Shown here: piece by piece, positions 3,168 through 14,443 of the stretch | Layout: every line of letters starts with the position of its first letter | Position numbering within the stretch: position 1 is the stretch's first letter | Assembly (NCBI GenBank): GCA_015061815.1 | Contig: SUVW01000002.1 | Span: 62,001 to 126,000 of the forward strand | Direction: 5' to 3' | Source: Lentisphaerota bacterium | Lineage (GTDB): Bacteria > Verrucomicrobiota > Lentisphaeria > Victivallales > Victivallaceae | Length of the DNA stretch: 64,000 nucleotides | Position numbers and translations under genes: made by a program | Notes under the pieces: generated by a model | Told to the model about the DNA's origin: nothing | Seen by the model: the letters and a program-made list of their open reading frames with translations, nothing else | The model's database searches: none

Positions 3168-3851
3168 TCAAAGAAATGACGGTCCACGAGTTTGCAATGG
3201 ATTAAACATATACTGCCCTTCATCCGTGTAAACTGTTTCATACGGCAATGCCACTGCATGACCGTCATTGAAAAGATAGTTGCCGGTTTTGGAATGTCGG
3301 TAACTGATTTGACTTTTATAGGCACTCCTGCCACTGCTGTTATCTGAAGCGACCTTGTACTTCTGCGCAGCCGTATCACAGAAAATGGCAATGTATGACG
3401 GAATTTTTGCCCGTTTGACCACAGTTCGAAGACTGATATTATAACCGTAGGTCAGTCTGGCCGGATAGTATGTCCACGCAGCATTCTGTACAGTAGCCAC
3501 CCAGGGATCATCGGCTCCGCAATCGTAAATAGCCCATTGACTGCTATTGGCATCAACTGCCTGCGGGAAAGCAACCTTACGCAGAATGATCGGCCAGTTT
3601 TCCGAACTTCCATCCGCAAGTACCACATCATCCATCGCATCGCAATAGTAGCTGAAGTCGTGATAGACCTGTTTCAAATTGCTCAAGCAGCTCGTAGCGA
3701 TCCCCCGTTGACGGGCCGAATTGAGTGCAGGCAGCAATATCGCCGCCAGTATCGCGATTATCGCGATGACTACAAGAAGCTCAATCAATGTGAAGCGTAA
3801 AAGCTTCACATCCGTATACGGATGTTGATGTTTCATTTTTACCCTTTTCAT
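3168..3851 (-). CDS. Prepilin-like protein with type IV pilin leader (DUF1559-like)
   Basis: 227 residues. A short basic leader is followed by the prepilin motif [18 protein letters not shown], where prepilin peptidase would cut before Phe with Glu at mature position 5, and then LLPALNSAR. The C-terminal part carries the His-(x)-Asp-Gly element [10 protein letters not shown] typical of DUF1559-type proteins of Planctomycetes and Lentisphaerae. Family knowledge suggests export through a type II secretion or type IV pilus-like machine; the role of these expanded proteins is unknown. It lies 14 bases after a GntR-type regulator and directly before two secreted proteins. Two ATGs (3851 and 3836) each have an AAGGG box five bases upstream. 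The leader codons contain two adjacent inverted repeats, listed separately. Confidence 0.88.
3789..3810. repeat. Inverted repeat in the prepilin leader, 8-bp arms
   Basis: TGTGAAGC and GCTTCACA are separated by six bases, inside the codons just before FTLIE. The core GTGAAGC/GCTTCAC is shared with the inverted repeat at the same place in the prepilin gene at 12770-13576. Confidence 0.75.
3808..3825. repeat. Perfect 18-bp palindrome in the prepilin leader
   Basis: ACATCCGTATACGGATGT is its own reverse complement. It overlaps the neighbouring inverted repeat by three bases (ACA) and lies entirely within the leader codons of the 3168-3851 gene. Confidence 0.8.
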
Positions 3852-3865
3852 TTTTTCCCTTTCAT

Positions 3866-4894
3866 TCAGTTGATTATTAATTTTCCGGCGATCCTGACTG
3901 ATTCTGCCGGATCACCCCCGAAATTTTCCAACAATTCAAATGCCTTTTCCGCCATTTTGATATTATTATGCCGGTAAGAGGCGAATAATCCGGTTTCCAT
4001 CAGCGGGATATCATCCAGCGCGGCCAGAGAAAATTCTCCGAGCAGCGGTCTGTTTTCCCGGTTCCATATATCATGGATATTCACCCCGTAAGCAAAAACC
4101 AGAGCCGTAATTCCTTCTGAAAGAGCAGCTGTCAATTGCGCCGCGACCGGTATCTCGCCGGATAAACAATAACATACACTGTGCCGCATCAACGGCAGAT
4201 CATGCTCCCAGTGCCAACGCCAGAATGCACTCTGGATATCCGGGCGCACCCCATTGAATGTTTCCTGAACCAATCCGATTTTACGGTGACCGGCAGCATA
4301 AAACGCATCCAACATCTGTTTCAAACCGTCAACTTCATCAACTTTCACCGTTGGAAAACTTCCCGCCCGCCACCAGTCATTTATCATCACACAAGGCAGT
4401 TTACTGCGGATAAGTTCTTCGCGTATCAGGCTTTCACCCCCGCCGACTCCGCAGGGAAAACGGATCACCCCATCCACAGAAACCGCAATCGCTTTCTGCA
4501 GAAATGCGATTTCAGTATCACTGTGTTCACCATTGCCCATCAGCAGCCGGATACCGCGTTTCTCGGCTACTGCGGATAAAGCTTCGTAAAAATCCAGCAC
4601 CTGCGGATTGCCCTGCAGCCGCAACGGCAGAGCTATCAGCTGCAAATCCTTTTTCCCCGGTAAATTAACGTACACTCCCAAGCCGTTGCGCCCGACAAGA
4701 ATGCCGCGCCGGATCAAACCGGTCAATGCCCGGTAAGCTGTCGGCGGCGTGACCTGATACCTCTCCGACACTTCCCGTACTGAATAAAAACGATCCTCAT
4801 GGGAAAAATTGCCGGAATTCAATTCCTGCAATAATTTCTGTTCCAGAATTTCCACTTTGCCCGGAGTGATTTTCCGGTTGCCGGGAATGATCAT
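3866..4894 (-). CDS. GntR-type winged-helix regulator with LacI-like sensor domain
   Basis: About 342 residues. Residues 1-75 form a GntR-type winged helix ([20 protein letters not shown], then a wing with GRNGLGVYV). The rest resembles a LacI/periplasmic-binding-protein sensor (GHRKIGLV near residue 200), as in AraR-like regulators that bind sugars. Start chosen at the ATG because AGGTGG lies five bases upstream; a GTG nine bases earlier is the alternative. It has its own near-consensus promoter (4940-4968) and is followed at 14 bases by a prepilin-like gene and secreted proteins, so it most likely controls that locus in response to a sugar. Ligand unknown. Confidence 0.88.
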
Positions 4895-4939
4895 TTTGAC
4901 CACCTTTTCATTTGCCTTTCCATGATTATCAACACTTTA

Positions 4940-4968
4940 AACATATCCCAACTTTTTATTTATGTCAA
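4940..4968 (-). promoter_or_regulatory. Sigma-70-type promoter of the GntR-regulator operon
   Basis: On the minus strand TTGACA (4968-4963), a 17-base spacer and TATGTT (4945-4940). A start near 4933 would leave a leader of about 40 bases. Confidence 0.7.
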
Positions 4969-5065
4969 GTATTTTAATGATCAGACTGACAAAATTTTAT
5001 CAAAAAAACAGCTTTTCAAACCTTTTCATACGCCATTTCTATTTTCCCGTATAAAGGTTCCGGAC

Positions 5066-5120
5066 AAAAAAAACGCGCCGTCGTTTTTATTCTCCGCATA
5101 ACGGAGGATCAACGGGCGCG
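5066..5120 (-). terminator. Rho-independent terminator of the rhamnosidase/deacetylase locus
   Basis: On the minus strand an outer GC-rich stem (CGCGCCCGT with ACGGCGCG) encloses an inner hairpin CTCCG-TTATG-CGGAG and runs into eight T. It lies 32 bases after the stop of the M24-like gene and separates this locus from the GntR-regulator operon. Confidence 0.8.
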
Positions 5121-5152
5121 ATCAGGGGGTGTGATTTACAGTGATGAAAAGA

Positions 5153-6499
5153 TCAGTTTCCGGAATTCTGCACCAGATGCTGAACATTGATGGGCAAATT
5201 AGTGACAGTTTCCACTTCTCTGCCGCTTTTGATGAGAGTATTTTCGATGACCAGATAATCGAATCCGGGGATAATGACATCGTTCCAGTGGTTCCCGATG
5301 CCGCGCAATGCCACATCGAGCATGGTAACGATATTTTCGCCCAGCGGTTCTTCAGATTCCAGAGTTATCGCTCCGAAAAACTCCTGACACTCGGTATAAC
5401 CGGAATTGTGAGTCCCGGTATAAGGTTTCAGATTGGCGAGGTCGATCTTTTTCCCGAATCTGGCACTGACTTCACCGGCTTTACCGGCAAAATAATCGAC
5501 CAGAGCCTGTTCCTGGATCTTGGCGGGCAGAGCGTTTTCCGCAACGCGGCAGTAGGCATCGAATCCGGTTTTATACGCTCCTTCCACCAGATCGAAAAAG
5601 TATTTCTGACCGTCAGTCACCTCATCCGGAGAATTCACCGCAATTACAGAACGCCGGATGCAGCTGTTCAAACCGTCGCACTTTGCTCCGACGCCGAGAT
5701 GCACATAATCACCGTATTTTATCTCCCGGTTGAGAGCTTTACCGATAAGCGAACGGTTGGCTTCATTGGCTCCGACCATAATATCAAAACCCAACTCTTC
5801 CGCGCCCATTTCCCGGGCGGCGAAGTATCCCCATGCGGCGACTTGCGTTTCCAGCATTCCCGGTTTCAAAACCGCCAGCATCACGCGCATGATGATATCG
5901 GAAATTTTCCCTGCCTGACGGATAAGTTCTTTTTCAGCGGGACTTTTTTCATACTTGATTTTGTAGTAAAGTTCCTGGGCATCGACCACTTGCGAAATCT
6001 GCTGACAGTAATCGACCAGCGAAGCCGGGATCACCTGTCGCGGGGTCAGCAAAGCGATTTTTTCCGGGAGGATCCCGCCATTGGCGGCGGCGAGGATATC
6101 TTCAAATTTTTCAGCGGCAACAGGATATTTTTCATCAGCCAGTTGGAGCAATTCAGCTTTGTGGACAGTTACCGGATGATCAGCCGTAAGCTGTTCGGCG
6201 ACATAACCGCCTTCCAGACCGGCGATCAGATGGGTTCCGGTTTTTCCGACGACGGCGGCGACCTGTTCGACCGTCAGATTGCAGTTGCCGCACAGATACG
6301 GCACATCGCCGCAGTAGTGTTCATCGGAAAAAACCAGACCGACCTCCAGACCGTTGTCTTTCAGAGCATGGTAAAGTTTTTCAGAACGCGTCCGGTACTC
6401 TTCCGCAGGTATCCGGGCAAATTTATTGATTTCAGGAGCTTGGGCCAGAATATTTTTTACCAGTTCGAAATCATTTTCCAATCTTTTTATATCAACCAT
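5153..6499 (-). CDS. M24-fold (Xaa-Pro aminopeptidase/creatinase-like) protein, metal ligands not conserved
   Basis: About 448 residues: an N-terminal creatinase-like domain (to about 170) and a C-terminal pita-bread domain that opens with EKSPAEKELIRQAGKI. In active M24 peptidases the metal ligands are two Asp, one His and two Glu. Here the stretch that should carry the Asp pair reads HLGVGAKCDGLNSCIRRS (about residues 267-284), with Gly and Cys at the ligand positions. The His region is altered (TGTHNSGY), and the Glu positions read TMLDVAL and NHWNDVII. It is therefore either non-catalytic or a metal-free hydrolase like creatinase. ATG chosen with GGAG eight bases upstream; a GTG at 6505 would overlap the deacetylase stop. 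Last gene of its operon, before the terminator. Confidence 0.82.
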   Translation of the reverse strand: MVDIKRLENDFELVKNILAQAPEINKFARIPAEEYRTRSEKLYHALKDNGLEVGLVFSDEHYCGDVPYLCGNCNLTVEQVAAVVGKTGTHLIAGLEGGYVAEQLTADHPVTVHKAELLQLADEKYPVAAEKFEDILAAANGGILPEKIALLTPRQVIPASLVDYCQQISQVVDAQELYYKIKYEKSPAEKELIRQAGKISDIIMRVMLAVLKPGMLETQVAAWGYFAAREMGAEELGFDIMVGANEANRSLIGKALNREIKYGDYVHLGVGAKCDGLNSCIRRSVIAVNSPDEVTDGQKYFFDLVEGAYKTGFDAYCRVAENALPAKIQEQALVDYFAGKAGEVSARFGKKIDLANLKPYTGTHNSGYTECQEFFGAITLESEEPLGENIVTMLDVALRGIGNHWNDVIIPGFDYLVIENTLIKSGREVETVTNLPINVQHLVQNSGN

Positions 6500-6501
6500 T
6501 T

Positions 6502-7203
6502 TCACATCTCCAGCAATTTATCCAATCCGGTAATTTTCCGGGGTCTCATTTTGTTGCGTATCAGGGCCTCGGCGTAACGGACACCGATCATTTGTCCGCG
6601 CATGGCGGCACGGGATGACAACATCTGATCAGCTCCGCCGACCACTCCGGTCTGTGAAGCGTAAACCGCCATAGCTTCCAGTTTGGCACTCATAGTACCG
6701 GAAATATCGACAAGCAGTTCCGGTTCGGGCATAAGTTTGATAACTTCGAAGTGATACAGCGGCACATCTTTATACACCGGTGCGGCTTCGATCGCACAGG
6801 CCAGAGAAGCATGGAAGTGTCCTTCGGCGACGGCGACACTTACGTTCCGGTGGTCGCGGTAGTCGCTCTCCAAGTGGGTGAATACCGCATCGGGTTTGAA
6901 AGAACGGATCTCTTCAATGACCAGACGGTAAGTGGAATTATCCGCCGGAATGCTCCAATCCAGCAAATTGAAGTTGCGGTAACTGCTCACGCCCAAGATA
7001 CTGCACACTCTGGCCACCTCTCCGGCCCGGGTGGCACAGATGGTATCTTTTTCTTCCGGTGAAGCATACCCCTCGGCTCCGGCGGAGAAGTGGACCAGCC
7101 GGATCTCCGCGCCGGCATCGGCAAATTTGCGGATCGTACCGCCCAGACCGATAACTTCATCATCGGCATGTGCGCAAAAAACCAGTATTTTCATAGTTTT
7201 CAT
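6502..7203 (-). CDS. PIG-L/LmbE-family N-deacetylase
   Basis: About 233 residues with the PIG-L metal motif HADDE (CAHADDEVIGLGG, near residue 12) and the second motif YRDHRNVS near residue 110. Family members remove N-acetyl groups from GlcNAc-containing substrates with zinc. It lies between an unknown TIM-barrel-like gene and an M24-like gene in a rhamnosidase locus, so a glycan or glycoconjugate substrate is likely. Start at 7203 gives an ATGA overlap with the upstream gene. The ATG at 7194 (MKILVF) has a better-spaced GGAAAG and may be the true start. A longer reading to 7293 adds residues unlike the family and was not used. Confidence 0.88.
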   Translation of the reverse strand: MKTMKILVFCAHADDEVIGLGGTIRKFADAGAEIRLVHFSAGAEGYASPEEKDTICATRAGEVARVCSILGVSSYRNFNLLDWSIPADNSTYRLVIEEIRSFKPDAVFTHLESDYRDHRNVSVAVAEGHFHASLACAIEAAPVYKDVPLYHFEVIKLMPEPELLVDISGTMSAKLEAMAVYASQTGVVGGADQMLSSRAAMRGQMIGVRYAEALIRNKMRPRKITGLDKLLEM

Positions 7204-8045
7204 CTTTCCAGAAAGGTGTGGACTCCAAGATAATGTTCGATATAATCGTGGACAAAACGGATGCTTTCGCGGTGGTCTTCTCTGGAGAACCATCCGGGCT
7301 GCAGCAGAACCAATCCGCCGATAATACCTTTGCGCAGCGCATGGAAAACATTGGGCAGCATGACTTTAAATGTTTCAACCGGCATAGGACCGCCCTCGGC
7401 GCAACCGTTGCAATTGGCGTAATTGTGCATATAAATACCGCTGAAAACCGGTTTTTTGAAACGTTTGGCGATCATCTGCACATCCCGGATATAATCGCAC
7501 TCCCAGTAAGCGGTACTGGTGGTCATATTCCAGTAATTTATCACGTCAAAATAATCCCGTACATCCTCCAGCTGATCCTGATTCTGCCAGGTGTAGCGCA
7601 CCAGATGGAGCTGCAGAGCCGGATTTATCCGTTTTATGGCGGCATAAATTTCGGCGAGTTCTCCGGCCTGCATATCTTTCGTCGGGCCGACCAGATCGCG
7701 GAAGTCATCGATGATAAGGGCGGTTATCCGTTTGTCTTTCAGTGACATTTCCGCAATTTTCACGGCCGTAGCCAGATATTGCAGATCCCACTTTTCGCCG
7801 ATATTATCCAGCGGCACATGGGAAAGCGGCATCATCAGTTCCCGGGCATTCTGCAGCCGGCTCCAGAAAGTCGGATCATCCAGTACTGCCGGATCAAAGG
7901 TGCTGTTCATGGGCACAAGATTATCAGCGGACATGTAGCGCGCTCCGGTTTCCAGACTGCACCAGGTCGGATATTCCACCGACGGAACCAATGAGGGGAA
8001 CTTTTCGATGGTATATCCCCACATCCAAATTCGGTTGTTTTGCAT
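7200..8045 (-). CDS. Unknown protein, probable TIM barrel, in rhamnosidase locus
   Basis: 281 residues, no signal peptide. Features suggest an (alpha/beta)8 barrel: alternating hydrophobic strands such as ITALIIDDF (with a double Asp) and YFDVINYWNM, and a Trp/Tyr-rich first strand (RIWMWGY). A cluster CNGCAEGG near residue 215 might bind metal. I do not recognise a family. It overlaps the deacetylase by four bases and follows the GH78 gene by 20 bases, so it should act in the same pathway, perhaps on a cytoplasmic rhamnose-containing product. Confidence 0.7.
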   Translation of the reverse strand: MQNNRIWMWGYTIEKFPSLVPSVEYPTWCSLETGARYMSADNLVPMNSTFDPAVLDDPTFWSRLQNARELMMPLSHVPLDNIGEKWDLQYLATAVKIAEMSLKDKRITALIIDDFRDLVGPTKDMQAGELAEIYAAIKRINPALQLHLVRYTWQNQDQLEDVRDYFDVINYWNMTTSTAYWECDYIRDVQMIAKRFKKPVFSGIYMHNYANCNGCAEGGPMPVETFKVMLPNVFHALRKGIIGGLVLLQPGWFSREDHRESIRFVHDYIEHYLGVHTFLER

Positions 8046-8065
8046 AATTCAGTTAATCCTTTACG

Positions 8066-10222
8066 TTACTGATCAATAGTGAACCGGTTTTCGCCGGGGT
8101 GCAAATCATACACCCGGTTTGACGATTCCAATTTTCCGGATGCCGGAGAGGTTACCTGCAGGGAAATTTTATCATCCTGCTTCTGCCATGCCAGAGATAT
8201 CCAGCCTGCTGAATGACGGTACTTGACGGCAAAGTCATCCAAACCCTCCGGAAAAACCGGCTTAAGGATCAATTCTCTCATCGCCGGATTTTCCCATGAC
8301 GGAGCGATACCGCCGGGATAACGCATCATCCATGCGGCGATATCACCGAACATGATATGGTTGCGGGAAAAACTGCCGTCCCAATATTCCCAGAGGGTGG
8401 TTGCACCCTGTTTTATCCAGTTGCCGTAGCCGGGATATCCGGTTTGAGTGAGGATTTTAAATGCCAGATCGCTTCTGCCGCAGTCGGCCAGCAGCCGGGG
8501 GATGAATTTGGCTCCGACGATGCCGAAATCGGCTTTGCCGCCGGAATTTTCATAATTGCCGATGAGACTTTTCAAAGCCTGCTCCCGGTCGATATCCAGC
8601 AGATATTTCAATGCCAGCGAAGTGCTTTCCTGCCGGTCGGCGTGGACGGCCATCAACTCTCCGCGCAATTTTTCACCGCAGGCGGTAAAGTGTTTACGAT
8701 CATCATCACAGCCGAGCAATCCGGCAAATTTCGCCAGCATATCCGCTTCCATAATGTAAAAACAACTGCTGACGAACTCCACCGGGGCCGCCTTTTCCGG
8801 AAACGGATGGCAGTGGTCGCCCAGACCGAAACGGATGATGCCGTCTTCAGAAATGGTGCCGAGATAGTTGAAGTGACGGACGATCGCGCTGTAAAATCTT
8901 TCAATGGCAGATGGATTGCCGGTGTGGATATAAATTGCGTAAGGTATCAGCCAGAGAGCCGAATCCCATACCGGCCCGGAACCGTAATTGTAACCCCAGC
9001 CCGCAGAAGGCGCAACTGCGGCAAGTTGACCGGAACCCCTCTGGGTGTCAACGATACACTGCAGGTAACGCAAGTAACTCGTTTGAGCATCAAATGCACT
9101 CAAACCGCTTTCGGCGGCAAAAGCGGCATCAGCGGTCCAGCCGTTCTTTTCCCGGTGGGGGCAGTCGGTGGGGATGCCGACGAAGTTGCCGGAGTAAGAG
9201 GCTATCGCCGCAGAATACAACTTCTGCATGATCTCATGGGAAGTGGAAATTTCCCCGATCCGGTCAAAATTTGTCCGGATCTCCTGCACATCCATTCTCA
9301 CGACTTCCGCGTTGCCGGAAATACTCACTTCGATATATTGAAATGAGTGATAGACAAACTTCGGCGACCACACCTCGTCGACCCGGTTGCCGCGCAGCGT
9401 GTATGAATCGGTCTGCACCGCATCGCCGGGGATGAATTGTCCCAGATCCACCTGCGTGAATTTTCCTTCTGCAGAGAGATGGTCGCTGTAACGCAAAGTG
9501 ACTTTGCTGCCGGATTCACCCCGGACGGTGATCCTGACCGTACCGGTAACGATGCGCCCGGCATCATAGACAAAAGGAAAAAGTTTTTCCGTGACGGCAA
9601 AGGTGTTGACCACTGCGGCCGCCGGAGCATTTTCCGGCAGCAATTCACCGCCCGGTCCGGGTTTGATCACCGCCCGGTGCCACGCGGAAACATCAAATCC
9701 CGGAGCCAACCAGTTGTCAAATTCCAGACGGGCATCATAATACTCCCCGCCGTGCCAGTTGTTGAAAACGATCGGCGAAACTCCGGAAACCTGCCATGAC
9801 GTATCGCTGACCAGCAGAACTTCTCCGCTGGAACGCAATTCAAATATCATTTTCGGATAATCCCGCCACGAAGCAGTGTTGAACTGCCAGAAATCATTGA
9901 CCTGACAATTATACAATCCATTGCCGAGGATCGCACCGAAAACATTTGTTCCGGGCTGCAGAGCAACCGGGTATTCCCGGAAGTAACAATGCCGGTCGTA
10001 AACAGACGGTGCCGGATCAAGGATACCGGCAGAGAGCTTTTCCCCGTTGAAATAAAGTTCGGCCAATCCGATACCGCAGAAGCGGACAACTGCCGCTGCC
10101 GGAGCATCACCGGACCAAAGGTATTCCCGGCGGAAATATGGCGCAGGCAGCCGTTTGGCATAACGGCTGGTCATTATATCCGGAACGGAAATCCACTTGG
10201 CTTGTTCTGAAAAATTTTTCAC
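8066..10222 (-). CDS. GH78 alpha-L-rhamnosidase, cytoplasmic
   Basis: About 718 residues without a signal peptide, so the substrate is probably imported first. N-terminal beta domains are followed by an (alpha/alpha)6 barrel. The GH78 motif DCPHREKNGWTAD places Asp353, Glu358 and Asp365 with the spacing of the Asp-Glu-Asp set known from Bacillus BsRhaB, and Glu612 in TTLWEYWD fits the fourth catalytic acid. The GTG at 10222 is chosen over a TTG at 10243 because a partial copy of this gene start (10599-10778) retains the same GTG and has an in-frame stop upstream of it. Cleaves terminal alpha-L-rhamnose. Transcription may come from the promoter at 10459-10486 as well as read-through. Confidence 0.93.
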   Translation of the reverse strand: MKNFSEQAKWISVPDIMTSRYAKRLPAPYFRREYLWSGDAPAAAVVRFCGIGLAELYFNGEKLSAGILDPAPSVYDRHCYFREYPVALQPGTNVFGAILGNGLYNCQVNDFWQFNTASWRDYPKMIFELRSSGEVLLVSDTSWQVSGVSPIVFNNWHGGEYYDARLEFDNWLAPGFDVSAWHRAVIKPGPGGELLPENAPAAAVVNTFAVTEKLFPFVYDAGRIVTGTVRITVRGESGSKVTLRYSDHLSAEGKFTQVDLGQFIPGDAVQTDSYTLRGNRVDEVWSPKFVYHSFQYIEVSISGNAEVVRMDVQEIRTNFDRIGEISTSHEIMQKLYSAAIASYSGNFVGIPTDCPHREKNGWTADAAFAAESGLSAFDAQTSYLRYLQCIVDTQRGSGQLAAVAPSAGWGYNYGSGPVWDSALWLIPYAIYIHTGNPSAIERFYSAIVRHFNYLGTISEDGIIRFGLGDHCHPFPEKAAPVEFVSSCFYIMEADMLAKFAGLLGCDDDRKHFTACGEKLRGELMAVHADRQESTSLALKYLLDIDREQALKSLIGNYENSGGKADFGIVGAKFIPRLLADCGRSDLAFKILTQTGYPGYGNWIKQGATTLWEYWDGSFSRNHIMFGDIAAWMMRYPGGIAPSWENPAMRELILKPVFPEGLDDFAVKYRHSAGWISLAWQKQDDKISLQVTSPASGKLESSNRVYDLHPGENRFTIDQ

Positions 10223-10239
10223 TTTTTTTATCCGTAATT

Positions 10240-10341
10240 TCAAGGTTCCTGCAGCGGTTCGGGCGAGATTTTACCCGGATCAAGAACTTCACCTTTACCG
10301 ATGACTTTCATCACTGCTCCTGAACTCAACAGCTTCCATTC
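10240..10341 (-). pseudogene. C-terminal remnant of a paralogue of the 10794-12767 glycosidase-like gene
   Basis: Read on the minus strand, the last 25 codons before the TGA spell AVMKVIGKGEVLDPG, KISPEPLQ and EP. This matches the intact neighbour's KAVMKVYGG, ENISLEPLQ and terminal QEP. About 55 residues between LQ and EP are missing. Both break points carry GCAGG, so a deletion between short direct repeats is the likely cause. The frame stays open to about 10341 and then joins unrelated sequence. The rhamnosidase GTG follows 20 bases downstream. Confidence 0.75.
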
Positions 10342-10409
10342 CCGGCCTGTACCGCAACAGCAGCAGATATCAATAATAATGATAACATTTTATACATTGA
10401 CACTTTCAT
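10326..10409 (-). pseudogene. Truncated gene start: signal peptide only
   Basis: An ATG with AAAGGG eight bases upstream opens MKVSMYKMLSLLLISAAVAV, then QAGNGSC and a stop. This is a convincing signal peptide with nothing after it. The following sequence is out of frame with the C-terminal remnant at 10240-10341, so the body of the gene has been lost. A promoter lies just upstream at 10459-10486. Confidence 0.6.
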
Positions 10410-10458
10410 ACAATATCCCTTTCGTGATACTATATAACCGACCCCATACAGATGACAT

Positions 10459-10486
10459 AATATATAATTTACGAAGAAAAAAGCAA
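10459..10486 (-). promoter_or_regulatory. Promoter in the remnant region, pointing at the rhamnosidase
   Basis: Minus strand TTGCTT (10486-10481), a 16-base spacer and TATATT (10464-10459) in an AT-rich patch. It once served the truncated gene at 10326-10409 and may now drive the rhamnosidase operon. Confidence 0.5.
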
Positions 10487-10598
10487 TGTTATAGTGCATT
10501 ACAGCCGGCATTGGAACTGAAAAAAATAATTTTCCAACGGCAACACAAAAATAATTAAGTGTATTAATATTAAATTCATGCATTAATTTTCCGATGGC

Positions 10599-10778
10599 GG
10601 GAACAGTTACACTGCCGGAACGTTTTTCGCTGATACCGTAAATATTACCGTTGTATTCATAAAACGCACACCGGATCTCATCGTTGGGAACCGGAACATC
10701 AGCCAGCCGCCGGGCAAAACGGCTGGTCATTATTTCCGGAGAAGATATCCATTTGGCCTTTTCTGAAAAACTTTTCAC
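10599..10778 (-). pseudogene. Chimeric remnant: rhamnosidase start fused to glycosidase-like C-terminal part
   Basis: Starting with GTG, 24 codons copy the rhamnosidase N-terminus (KSFSEKAKWISSPEIMTSRF against KNFSEQAKWISVPDIMTSRY). At RRLA the reading switches to the C-terminal part of the neighbouring glycosidase-like protein (DEIRCAFYEYNGNIYGI against DVRCALYEYNGNIYGI). Six codons are then missing before SEKRSGSVTVP. After that the frame stays open into unrelated AT-rich DNA. With 10240-10341 this implies a former tandem array of glycosidase-like and rhamnosidase genes that collapsed by deletion. Confidence 0.75.
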
Positions 10779-10793
10779 TTTCTCATCCGCATT

Positions 10794-12767
10794 TTATGGT
10801 TCCTGCGGGGGAGTGATCCCATGCTTTTTCCAATGCTCAAATCTCCGCGCTCTCCGGCGGTCGATCGCCTTTTTGAAAGCGTTCTGTCCCTCCAGAACTT
10901 CATCCCGGGGGATCTGCTGCCAGCACGGTTCCGGCAGTGGAGAATTGCCCCAGACGATCACCTGCAGCGGTTCCAGAGAGATATTTTCCGGAGCCAAAGC
11001 AGCAGAGTTTCCGCCGTAAACTTTCATCACCGCTTTTTCCGGCAAAGTGACCTTGACCCGGCGTTTTTCCACTGAAGTATTGAGCAAAATACCGTAAATA
11101 TTGCCGTTGTACTCATAGAGCGCACAGCGGACGTCGGGATCGGAAACCGGCGCATCTGCCAGACGTTTGCCGTTGATGAACAATCCGGAAAGCTCCTGCA
11201 GCTCTCTGGAAACTTTGAACAACTCCTGCTGGAACTTCCAGTTTTTGATTTGTTCAGGCGAATAAAGTATATACCCGTGACTGCCGCTGGTCATTGCATC
11301 GAATGCCATAAAGCGCGACTCCTCATAAGTCGGGTAACGCTGCAATTTTGCCGGATAACCGTAATCGCTCCATGAATTGCCCTGCAGACACATCCAGACC
11401 GGCTTTTTGCCCTCGACCACTTCGGTGAATCTGCGGGTGTAATCTCCCACCACACCGGGCAGTTTATTGGGCAGATTGGAGTGTCCGTTGGGGTACGGTA
11501 TCGGGTAGATATCCACGCCGAAAATATCAGCGCATGCCGCATAAAGTTTCAGATCAGGAATTTCGTTGCGGGGAGCTTCATTGATCCAGACCGGGTGATG
11601 CGGGTCGGCAGTTTTGACAAAGTTGTAATAGTCCGCCATCCGCTGTACCGGCCACCCTTTCCAGAATGGTTCATCGCTGGTCATATAACCGAAAAATGCG
11701 GGGTGATCCATCACTTTTTTGGTGACTCTGGCGGCGAAATCCCGTTTGAATTCCTCAAAACGGTTGGGATCTTTGATATGTCCGTACTGTTCCAGATAAA
11801 TGATGCCTTTAATACCGTATTTGTGGAAGCGGTCAAGTTCCCGGAGCATGTGAGCTTCGGCGTTAAAACCCATTATGCACATATTCACCCCGTTGCGGGA
11901 AGCTTCATAGAGCAGGCCGTCCTCGACCATTTCAAAGAAGTAAAAGACCGGGAAAAGCGGTTTGCCATTGACGTAAAAGTAGTGATTTTTTCCGGCGATG
12001 ACTTCATTGGGCGACGGCGGAGCGACGGTGACCCGCTGACGGATGGTTTTCTGAATACCGTTTTTGCCGGTCAGCAGCGAGATCAACTCATATTCACCCC
12101 CGGGCATTTTGGCCATATCGATGGCAACGACCCCGCCTTTATCCGGAGAAACCGGGCCCTTGACAGCGGCGACACAAACTTTTTGAGCATCGATCAATTC
12201 TGTATCGTGCCAGGTGGCTCCGCCGGAAACGGCAAATTGCAGTACCCGGTTCTTCTCTCCGGCATAGAAGGTCTGCCGGTAAGCCGGATGGATGATTTCA
12301 ATTTTCCACGCATCCCGGATATCCTCTTGGAGTTCTTCCAGACGGAGGTTGGAAATTTTCACTGCTCCCTTGCGGGTTTTCAATTCAAAGAGGATATCGA
12401 TCTTTTTATAACGGACTTTGGACGGGATGGAAAAATTCTGAAATGCATTTTGTTCCTTGTTTCTCACATCCTGAATGAGAAATGAACCCAGTACACGCGG
12501 AGCGGTGGATATCTGCAAGTTGTGAAACATCGCCGTCGCTCCCGAATCCCCCACGCCGCAGGCGGTGTAGTGCAAACGGTACTTTTTGCCCGGGACGACC
12601 GGTACGCCAATGAGTTTTGCCGCCCCTTTTCCCGCATTGATGGTGATACTCTCACCATCCACCGTGTGCCTGCCGCCGCCATCCCAGGTGAATTTCACTT
12701 CCCCGGAAGCGGAAAAAGTCCGCAATAATAACAGAGAAAGGATTGATAACGGAAAAAATAATCGCAT
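10794..12767 (-). CDS. Secreted TIM-barrel glycosidase-like protein
   Basis: 657 residues: signal peptide (about 1-20), an N-terminal jelly-roll-like domain to about 150, an Ig-like linker, then FYVNGKPLFPVFYFF opening a TIM barrel (about 250-540) and a small C-terminal beta domain. The barrel carries TSDEPFW, whose Glu is a plausible catalytic acid as in clan GH-A enzymes, and later conserved-looking strands VDIYPI and CLQGNSW. Family assignment is open (GH2/GH42-like in layout). It is translated two bases after a prepilin-like gene. A tail and an internal piece of paralogues lie downstream as remnants. Probably acts outside the cytoplasm on the glycan whose rhamnose is removed by the GH78 enzyme. 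Confidence 0.8.
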   Translation of the reverse strand: MRLFFPLSILSLLLLRTFSASGEVKFTWDGGGRHTVDGESITINAGKGAAKLIGVPVVPGKKYRLHYTACGVGDSGATAMFHNLQISTAPRVLGSFLIQDVRNKEQNAFQNFSIPSKVRYKKIDILFELKTRKGAVKISNLRLEELQEDIRDAWKIEIIHPAYRQTFYAGEKNRVLQFAVSGGATWHDTELIDAQKVCVAAVKGPVSPDKGGVVAIDMAKMPGGEYELISLLTGKNGIQKTIRQRVTVAPPSPNEVIAGKNHYFYVNGKPLFPVFYFFEMVEDGLLYEASRNGVNMCIMGFNAEAHMLRELDRFHKYGIKGIIYLEQYGHIKDPNRFEEFKRDFAARVTKKVMDHPAFFGYMTSDEPFWKGWPVQRMADYYNFVKTADPHHPVWINEAPRNEIPDLKLYAACADIFGVDIYPIPYPNGHSNLPNKLPGVVGDYTRRFTEVVEGKKPVWMCLQGNSWSDYGYPAKLQRYPTYEESRFMAFDAMTSGSHGYILYSPEQIKNWKFQQELFKVSRELQELSGLFINGKRLADAPVSDPDVRCALYEYNGNIYGILLNTSVEKRRVKVTLPEKAVMKVYGGNSAALAPENISLEPLQVIVWGNSPLPEPCWQQIPRDEVLEGQNAFKKAIDRRRARRFEHWKKHGITPPQEP

Positions 12768-12769
12768 AC

Positions 12770-13576
12770 TTACATTTCCTTATACACAGTGGCACTGGTG
12801 GTCGGCATATCATAATATGCAAATTTCGTGGAAATCCCGGATTCTTCCCGGACTTTCCCGAACCATCCCGGCTGCAATGACTCAACGTGACCGTCAGCAA
12901 ATGATGCACTCATTGTACCATTGTGACCGAAAAAAGGTTTTGCATCTTCTCCGGTTCCCAGTCCATAGTTTGAATGTTGACGTTTGTTGGAGGCACTCCA
13001 TGCTTCGGAAAAAACCATCATCCCGGAAGGATTTTTCAACTTCCGCATATCAATCACAAAATAGGCATTCGGCCAACCAAGTGGATTTTGAACCGCATCT
13101 TTTTCATTTACCTGATTTGGGGAATAAAGGGCGGTAGAATTTCCCGGTATTGCGATATAAGGTACGGCATAAAAAGCTCTGTATGTAGTTGCGTTATCAC
13201 CTTTTTTGGGAATCCATCCCGTGTATTTGGGGCAAGTGATCACATTGAAATCGGGCAACAGTTCCATGCCGTTTTTATTATCTTTACCAACCTGATTTCC
13301 ATTCACAATTGAAAACAATGTAAAATTCAATGCGTTTTCTCCGTTTTTCAGCAGCAGAACATCATTATTACTTTCAGCATACATAAATCCGGCATAGCCA
13401 CACTGTTTAAGATTGTTGATACAGCTTGCTGTACGTCCGCGTTCTCTTGCGGAATTGAGCGCAGGCAGCAAAATCGCCGCCAGGATCGCGATGATGGCAA
13501 TGACAACAAGAAGTTCTATAAGAGTGAAGCACACGTGCTTCACTCCAGTTGACTGGAGTGATTGATACTTTTTCAT
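12770..13576 (-). CDS. Prepilin-like protein with type IV pilin leader (DUF1559-like)
   Basis: 268 residues with the prepilin segment [18 protein letters not shown] after a 16-residue leader, followed by [17 protein letters not shown], the usual start of the family's mature part. The C-terminal [18 protein letters not shown] contains the His/Asp-Gly element. It lies between another prepilin-like gene (34 bases) and the secreted glycosidase-like gene (2 bases), so the two proteins are made together. The leader codons hold two overlapping inverted repeats. Family knowledge supports processing by prepilin peptidase; the role in glycan use is inference. Confidence 0.9.
13522..13545. repeat. Inverted repeat in the prepilin leader, 11-bp arms
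   Basis: The core GTGAAGCACACGTGCTTCAC is an inverted repeat with two central bases, and two more pairs extend it on each side. It shares GTGAAGC/GCTTCAC with the repeat at 3789-3810 at the same place in a second prepilin gene. Confidence 0.8.
13540..13561. repeat. Second inverted repeat in the prepilin leader, 10-bp arms
   Basis: CACTCCAGTTGACTGGAGTG plus one more pair on each side. It shares TCACTC with the first repeat, so in RNA this segment can pair with either flank but not both. Confidence 0.8.
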
Positions 13577-13610
13577 AATAATGGAGCCTTTCCTGTTTTT
13601 TGTTTTTCAA

Positions 13611-14348
13611 TTAAAGTCCGACAGTTTCCCGCTTACTGTCGTATACAAACCATTTGCCGGAAATACCGGAAGCCTCACGCTGTTCAGTTATAAATGCCAG
13701 CTCTTTACCATCGGCATGGCCGTCGGCGAAAGCCATATTGTTTTTGCCGTTATGCCGGAAATCCAGTTTGGTGTTCTCATTTTTTGCCAGACCGTAGGTG
13801 CTGTGCGCCTTTTTGCCTTTGGCATTCCACGCTTCAGCATAGATCACCGCCGAATCAGGGTACTGCAGTTTTTTGAAGTTCACCGCCACATCAGCATTGG
13901 GCCACTTGCGGAGCATGTGGAAGCCTTCCGGTTTCTCATAGGGAGTAAGAGAATAGTTGTTGTTGAATAATCCGTAGGGAACCGCATAAAATTCACTGAA
14001 ATGCCAAGTGATCCTTTTGGGAAGCACCGTTGTTTCCGGGCAAATTATCTCGTTGATACTCAATCGCTTGACACTCTTTTCCCCCGGATTGCCCACACTG
14101 ACCCCATACGCCATCGTCATCAAAAGTTTACCGGTACTGCTGTCACCGTACTTCAGAATGGCCCGGCCGTCGTGGTCACCGGCATAAGCCAGTGTCGCCC
14201 GTATGCACGCGCGCAGATTATCCAGACAGGATACCTCTTTGCCCGCACTCTGCGCCGAAGTCGCCGCCGGAACAACCAATGCCAGCATCACCGCAGCCAT
14301 CCCGATGATCAGACACAATTCCGACAGGCGGAAACAATAATTTTTCAT
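13611..14348 (-). CDS. Degenerate prepilin-like protein
   Basis: 245 residues. The C-terminal half matches the prepilin-like protein at 12770-13576 (IYAEAWNAKGKKAHSTYGL against [29 protein letters not shown] against [10 protein letters not shown]), so the two are paralogues. The leader is altered: FRLSELCLIIGMAAVMLALV replaces [10 protein letters not shown]. It keeps Phe and the Glu at position 5 but loses the TLIE core. It may still be processed or may be a plain membrane-anchored protein. GGAGG lies nine bases before the ATG. First gene of the operon behind the promoter at 14444-14472, divergent from the AraC regulator. Confidence 0.82.
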   Translation of the reverse strand: MKNYCFRLSELCLIIGMAAVMLALVVPAATSAQSAGKEVSCLDNLRACIRATLAYAGDHDGRAILKYGDSSTGKLLMTMAYGVSVGNPGEKSVKRLSINEIICPETTVLPKRITWHFSEFYAVPYGLFNNNYSLTPYEKPEGFHMLRKWPNADVAVNFKKLQYPDSAVIYAEAWNAKGKKAHSTYGLAKNENTKLDFRHNGKNNMAFADGHADGKELAFITEQREASGISGKWFVYDSKRETVGL

Positions 14349-14443
14349 TCCTTTTCACCTCCACTGGATTTTTTGAGAACTTTTACTTACCTCTTTGATT
14401 TTTAATCAGGAAACCGTTTCAGGGAACGTTATCCATCAACTCT

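Follow-up and report, generated by a model that had tools for sequence, protein, structure and literature searches.

Two prepilin-like genes in the 64-kb stretch of DNA analysed here (the window) carry a pair of palindromes at the same place, beside the codons for FTLIE, and the palindromes differ in sequence from one gene to the other. An earlier note had read this conserved arrangement with changed stem sequence as structural selection or as a mobile or variable cassette. The locus raises the question of what keeps such an arrangement in place while its letters change, and what it does to the genes that carry it.

Two overlapping palindromes form one leader unit

The first gene (3168..3851, minus strand) encodes a protein of 227 aa with the type IV pilin N-terminus FTLIELLVV, and the second (12770..13576, minus strand) a protein of 268 aa. 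The TIGR02532 N-terminal cleavage/methylation domain was found above its cut-off (16.3 bits) in two of the three window genes, namely these two, with 22.7 and 22.6 bits, respectively. The third gene, 13611-14348, had no NCBIfam match and, just as the earlier note had said, lacks the GTGAAGC palindrome arrangement.

The inner palindrome of the first gene, GTGAAGC-N6-GCTTCAC (3790..3809, minus strand), ends in the Phe-Thr codons of FTLIE, and its counterpart in the second gene is GTGAAGCACGTGTGCTTCAC in the mRNA sense (13524..13543, minus strand). When up to two mismatches were allowed, these were the only matches in the 64-kb window (0.20 expected; two matches were reached in 3 of 100 shuffles). 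As the earlier note had stated, GTGAAGC/GCTTCAC does stand beside FTLIE in both genes. The outer palindromes do differ in sequence: the first gene has a 24-bp palindromic frame (3805..3828, minus strand) with the perfect 18-bp core ACATCCGTATACGGATGT (3808-3825, centred at 3816/3817), and the second has CACTCCAGTTGACTGGAGTG (13541..13560, minus strand), in which the central two bases are unpaired. No other perfect loopless palindrome with 9-bp arms exists in the window besides the one centred at 3816/3817. When one mismatch was tolerated, 13 centres were found, three of them in these two leaders, compared to 3-13 centres in ten shuffles, indicating no general excess of palindromes in the window.

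The palindromes had been described as adjoining. Two are indeed present in each leader, but they do not merely adjoin: they overlap by the five bases GTGAA, and the true unit is therefore X-c1-X'-c2-X, 34 bp to the next X. The same layout (mRNA sense) recurs in a listing of FTLIE sites. In it, X stands for the Phe-Thr codons of FTLIE (TTYAC) and X' for their reverse complement GTRAA, by which the two palindromes overlap; the cores c1 and c2, both palindromic, measure about 14 and about 10 nt, respectively. The 34-bp unit of the first gene (X-c1-X'-c2; 3795..3828, minus strand) has a degenerate left arm, TCAAC in place of TTCAC, and runs up to X = TTCAC (3790..3794, minus strand), the Phe-Thr codons at the start of the mature pilin and the 3' partner of the middle arm. 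The 34-bp unit of the second gene lies at 13529..13562 (minus strand), with X at 13524-13528. In both genes the unit is single-copy and the start codon is in frame.

The geometry of unit 3795..3828 is common to 124 of 150 distinct units, which likewise have a period of 34, counted from the left to the target X; this share is biased upward because part of the set was found with a fixed-spacing motif. Four of the 150 periods are multiples of three. In 84 of 128 measured leaders the unit lies 5-31 nt after the start codon. Among the 87 distinct sites with exact X' in the window's genome and its relatives G001 and G004 (37, 28 and 22, respectively), the 10-nt spacing was present in 76 and an outer palindrome with at least nine Watson-Crick pairs in 74, and these 74 units contained 60 distinct 14-nt cores.

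Distribution in the genome and the genus

The window's genome (2.5 Mb in 44 contigs) has 71 sites matching TIGR02532 at E <= 0.001, the 3168..3851 and 12770..13576 genes included, and 73 distinct FTLIE sites, 37 of which have exact X'. A genome-wide search for GTGAAGC-N6-GCTTCAC gave 15 exact copies versus none for the reversed pattern, so that neither of the outcomes that the earlier note had named as fatal to a general system, occurrence in the two genes only or a single recent duplication, applies. All 18 copies with zero or one mismatch were in prepilin leaders (16 directly before FTLIE, another as the leading member of a tandem pair, and the last 42 nt upstream), and none was found outside prepilin leaders in this genome.

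A relaxed form of the motif was present in 22 of the 34 genomes sampled within the genus and in none of 26 genomes from other genera, the sample comprising one genome per species and mostly metagenome assemblies; exact X' was likewise absent from 28 prepilin starts of three other-genus genomes. Since 12 of the 34 genus genomes are without the motif, the unit is not universal in the genus. In G012, X' was found at 36 of 78 fetched sites, 20 of which also had an outer palindrome or a duplication by our tests, and in G014 exact X' was found at 1 of 25 fetched sites. Named public genomes added at least 107 motif-bearing stretches, 101 of them from Lentisphaerae/Lentisphaeria and six not, among the matches listed. 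These genomes are mostly metagenome-assembled, and many of their titles name the colon or cecum of sheep, yak or roe deer. Five of the six non-Lentisphaerae stretches (L214, L229, L254, L258 and L263), which had an outer palindrome in none of their six FTLIE rows, were left out of the counts given here; the sixth (L297, Gemmataceae, one row) is included. In these uncultured gut bacteria, pilin-like genes by the dozen begin with their own pair of overlapping palindromes.

Other modules were seen in leaders of the same gene family. In other prepilin genes of the window's genome (L003, L025, L030, L031, L038, L040 and L045), a second, longer repeated leader element that encodes ERERGRGGKGKLSFPVKRKFSLSPAHS-like peptides stands directly before FTLIE. 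The leaders of L028, L029 and L031 in this genome and of L091 in G020 resemble arrays of short hairpins with GCTTCAY or CTTCAC as separators, and such leaders end in TCAGCG or TCAACG before TTCAC. In L085, L089 and L098, a module encoding KRSHLCCDRVYGKEEGFSPAHGQVKLYS-like peptides, with an X-c1-X'-c2-X unit of its own, comes after FTLIELLV, which is consequently present twice; G014 has many GTGAAGCTGTACAGCTTCAC matches, and this module looks like a spreading cassette in some species. Elsewhere in the window, ORF 10326-10778 (minus strand) looks chimeric by eye, its start resembling gene 8066-10243 and its middle the end of gene 10794-12767.

Symmetry is kept while the letters change

Covariation was scored in an alignment of 27 standard-geometry units at sites picked by the analyst. 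The 324 cells of the outer pairs comprised 100 changed on both sides, 3 changed on one side and 25 unpaired. The score of the outer arms was 0.729, compared to 0.203 for shuffled and 0.08-0.17 for slid partners, and that of the inner arms was 0.420, compared to 0.136 for shuffled and at most 0.234 for slid partners; the innermost c2 pair was mostly unpaired. The unit and the Watson-Crick covariation of its arms can thus be read from the sequences themselves, and the earlier claim of a conserved arrangement with changed stem sequence holds strongly and across the genus. What is conserved is the symmetry, not the letters.

Among 214 sites, the Val codon in X' and the Phe codon 15 nt away had G..C as their third bases in 96, A..T in 112 and a mixed pair in 6. 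A protein-level constraint on the Val-Lys encoded by X' is unlikely, given that the Val third base tracks the Phe third base in 208 of the 214 sites, and restart of translation at the GTG of X' was rejected as a general role, as 116 of the 214 have GTA. When five pairs were counted in 75 exact-X' standard-spacing sites, G.T mismatches were no commoner than A.C mismatches (10 versus 17). The central 4-mer was self-complementary in 37 of all 75 such sites and in 35 of the 59 units in which the next five pairs were intact, where 1 in 16 is expected. The Watson-Crick double changes, the scarcity of G.U and the self-complementary centres argue for copying or selection at the DNA level and not for an RNA hairpin, and together point to DNA-level templating.

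The cores vary both among paralogs and among orthologs. The first window gene has a syntenic ortholog in G004, L078, where the layout is preserved; the outer core differs at 8 of its 14 bases and is palindromic in both versions. In L138, the G004 ortholog of the second window gene, eight consecutive c2 positions differ with most pairs kept, against a single difference in the 22 bases that lead from the start codon to the core. The last 48 bases of the L069 and L206 leaders differ by exactly one complementary pair. Two cases were unlike this compensatory pattern: three unpaired central bases were changed between L046 and L201, and one c2 base between L057 and L152. The leader-by-leader comparison of orthologs covers five of nine pairs, and in these the turnover is directly visible. 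Multi-base compensatory changes have been described as a footprint of template switching in replication (PMC8794818, PMC8604942); here, too, the inverted repeat stays paired through compensatory and multi-nucleotide changes, as at a template-switch hot spot.

Leaders and pilin bodies appear to be shuffled in L034/L147, L069/L206, L040/L185 and L050/L137, perhaps through the shared FTLIELLVV coding stretch. The bodies of L034 and L147 are 99.2% identical with unrelated leaders, and the leaders of L069 and L206 are nearly identical with different bodies.

Duplicated units put the pilin gene out of frame

Two tandem units were found in 18 distinct leaders (six in the window's genome, four in G001, one in G004, four in G012 and three in the named genomes SIG90, SIG92 and SIG93), 8 of which had been caught by a first, stricter duplication test; no three-copy leader was seen. 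The duplicate periods were 34 (15 leaders), 35 (two) and 38 (one), none of the 18 a multiple of three. The same test, applied to 63,880 window positions, found no tandem duplication of 24-59 nt ending at any of them. Because most units share one geometry, it may be by chance that the period of 34 is indivisible by three. Asymmetric core bases repeat in the same orientation, which makes an assembly artefact (collapsed palindromic k-mers) improbable as the origin of the duplicates. Two further sites were not counted as duplications: L172, which is cut by a contig end, and L149 (G004:C29), which lies at a contig end and has the look of a fold-back artefact. The contig start in L149 is an inverted copy of the pilin start folded near the leader palindrome, which is probably an assembly artefact.

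An in-frame start linked to a Shine-Dalgarno sequence was found in none of the 14 duplicates of the first set. G012 was scanned after the frame rule had been formed; one of its four duplicates had an in-frame start and three were out of frame. Reading by hand showed that the in-frame ATG of the exception lies within c2 and that its upstream ATG is out of frame. Overall, 17 of the 18 duplicates had no in-frame start by the automatic test, and in the remaining one such a start lay only within the unit. Of the 143 distinct single-unit leaders whose start could be recognised, 137 were in frame through the unit into FTLIE, 126 of 132 from the first set and 11 of 11 single units from G012 that were new to it (nine G012 sites, five of them single units, were shared with the first set and counted once). 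The six that were out of frame by the automatic test mostly have a longer leader module with an upstream 12-letter protein stretch, and seven more single units have no recognisable start. The unit-free leaders were in frame in 136 cases, out of frame in 5 and without a recognisable start in 33; the five out-of-frame ones resemble other leader types. No clear case of an out-of-frame zero-copy scar was seen among the leaders, though deletion, too, would be expected of palindromes flanked by direct repeats.

In their sequenced form, the 14 duplicated genes would stop after 20-83 aa. When the same genes were read with one copy, 12 gave 179-290 aa and two ran off the fetched locus. In two of 45 reciprocal ortholog pairs, one species has one copy and the other two (L153/L053, body 98.0% identical; L009/L121, 93.1%). 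In the genomes as assembled, the unit thus lies within the ORF, its copy number differs between relatives, and the change in copy number shifts the frame. Within the duplicated leaders of L112 and L405, an in-frame ATG (..CATG..) lies in the palindromic core just before FTLIE, and this ATG might restart translation with a very short leader.

Direct repeats of 2-8 bp were found at the duplication junctions, and in 4 of 14 they measured no more than 2-3 bp. The first copy in each of these four has an imperfect left arm, and the left arm of the second copy complements the whole middle arm, except for the central bases of L278; what has been joined thus reads as the reverse complement of the middle arm. 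Repeats of 2-3 bp are shorter than we would expect for ordinary slippage and fit a splint provided by the middle arm.

A proposed hairpin-templated switch and its alternatives

The reading that we favour, and consider fairly probable on the sequence evidence, is that the unit acts as a self-templating, frameshifting phase-variation cassette in the cleaved prepilin leader. The switch on the prepilin genes would probably be hairpin-templated and reversible. The middle arm, which consists of X' and half of c1, would serve as the splint, its 3' half matching the start of the mature pilin, X, and its 5' half the left arm, to both of which it is complementary. During replication, the nascent strand, with X copied, would fold back on the middle arm and be extended along it; on re-annealing at the left arm, the extended strand would yield a further copy of the unit, its outer palindrome now perfected. 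The second copy would shift the frame and turn the gene OFF, and slippage between the two copies would remove one, restore the frame and turn the gene ON. Such fold-back templating would also carry mutations from arm to arm, allowing the palindromes to drift quickly and yet stay symmetrical. These replication steps, and reversibility within a population, are what we infer from the junctions and the copy numbers. For the genus as a whole, we put forward more tentatively that these are self-writing switches, in which the splint of each gene's private palindrome would template an exact duplication, usually of 34 bp, turn the pilin gene off and regenerate the palindrome. With the palindrome regenerated by the duplication, the capacity to switch would thus be inherited though the sequence of the switch keeps changing. 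Read as an adaptation, the units would in the simplest case serve phase variation of a large set of pilins, varying which of about 70 are made.

The serious rival is a neutral hot spot, in which template switching at TTYAC in the free sequence of a cleaved leader would make self-perpetuating palindromes and now and then a gene-breaking duplication, with no selected switch. All of the mutational evidence fits such a process without selection, one paper reports that template switching creates and maintains hairpins (PMC8794818), and the want of clear out-of-frame zero-copy scars speaks for it as well. We nevertheless regard it as unlikely: exact X' occurs at 37 of the 73 FTLIE sites of the window's genome and the motif in 22 of the 34 genus genomes, palindromes elsewhere in the window are at chance level, the geometry is narrow (period 34 in 124 of 150 units, a set partly found by a fixed-spacing motif), and the duplicated genes retain long frames. 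What leads us to favour selection is that near-exact copies in the window's genome are confined to prepilin leaders, that the geometry is narrow, and that long intact frames stand behind frameshifted leaders.

The remaining alternatives are much less probable. A pair of cis-acting mRNA hairpins controlling translation or stability of the pilin mRNA would suit both the closeness of the unit to the start codon (5-31 nt downstream in 84 of 128 leaders) and the strong covariation of the arms, but is very improbable, as G.U pairs are few, 3 one-sided cells stand against 100 double changes, and the would-be loop centres are often self-complementary. The one leader folded, from the window, had an ordinary folding energy (z = -0.54), and Rfam gave no match in 3600-14400. 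A structured cis-regulatory RNA, with a G.U-tolerant stem and an unconstrained loop, was therefore rejected, and of the structural selection suggested earlier what survives is the possibility itself, hardly as selection on an RNA hairpin. Slightly less probable again is a recombination site that exchanges leaders and promoters between pilin bodies. The near-identical bodies with unrelated leaders (L034/L147, 99.2%) and near-identical leaders with different bodies (L069/L206) are what it would produce, but the shared FTLIELLVV coding stretch is already enough homology for exchange, the arms are not conserved as a recombinase needs, and the duplications would be left unexplained. Palindromic elements are known to have inserted in rickettsial genes, and a mobile palindromic element targeting prepilin leaders would be harmless in a cleaved leader and would have company in the other repeated inserts of this gene family. 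It is nonetheless the least probable of these readings, since nothing is conserved beyond X and X' (60 distinct cores in 74 units), no copies with zero or one mismatch occur elsewhere in the window's genome, and X' tracks the target codon (GTG with TTC, GTA with TTT), unlike a mobile copy. Dispersal of a conserved element at unrelated loci was not seen, and a mobile or REP-type element was rejected as a general explanation; of the cassette that had been proposed, the variable half stands, with ortholog leaders that differ and a unit that duplicates, and the mobile half does not.

Comparison with known systems

In searches of the open-access literature, none of the titles listed reports a palindromic unit combined with a frameshift switch, which is weak evidence of absence. 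Template switching is known chiefly for the errors it causes. Should the switch prove real, it would be a case in nature of template switching maintained as a mechanism, and about 70 pilins would be varied combinatorially without a dedicated recombinase by a device that rewrites its own sequence.

Phase variation by frameshift through repeat number is itself already well known, and simple-sequence-repeat contingency loci resemble the present units in that the copy number of a repeat within the ORF sets the frame of a surface-type gene (PMC11475388). Unlike those loci, the prepilin leaders have no standing repeat tract, and a gene with one copy is in frame; the unit, usually of 34 bp, consists of two overlapping palindromes with gene-specific sequence and seems to be perfected by self-templating, and X' occurs at about half of the prepilin sites of the window's genome. 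Quasipalindrome or template-switch mutagenesis perfects inverted repeats by compensatory and multi-base changes (PMC8794818, PMC8604942), whereas here the process is seen repeatedly at a single place across many paralogs and is coupled to a duplication that changes the frame. Perfect inverted repeats inside protein-coding genes are described for mitochondrial genes of Nematomorpha (PMC6649704); those palindromes reach 284 bp and encode conserved protein, whereas the units here are short, lie in a cleaved leader and are duplicated. Pilin variation in Neisseria includes ON/OFF change by non-functional sequence (PMC11475388); pilin expression would be variable in both systems, but in the bacteria studied here many genes are involved, each with a unit of its own.
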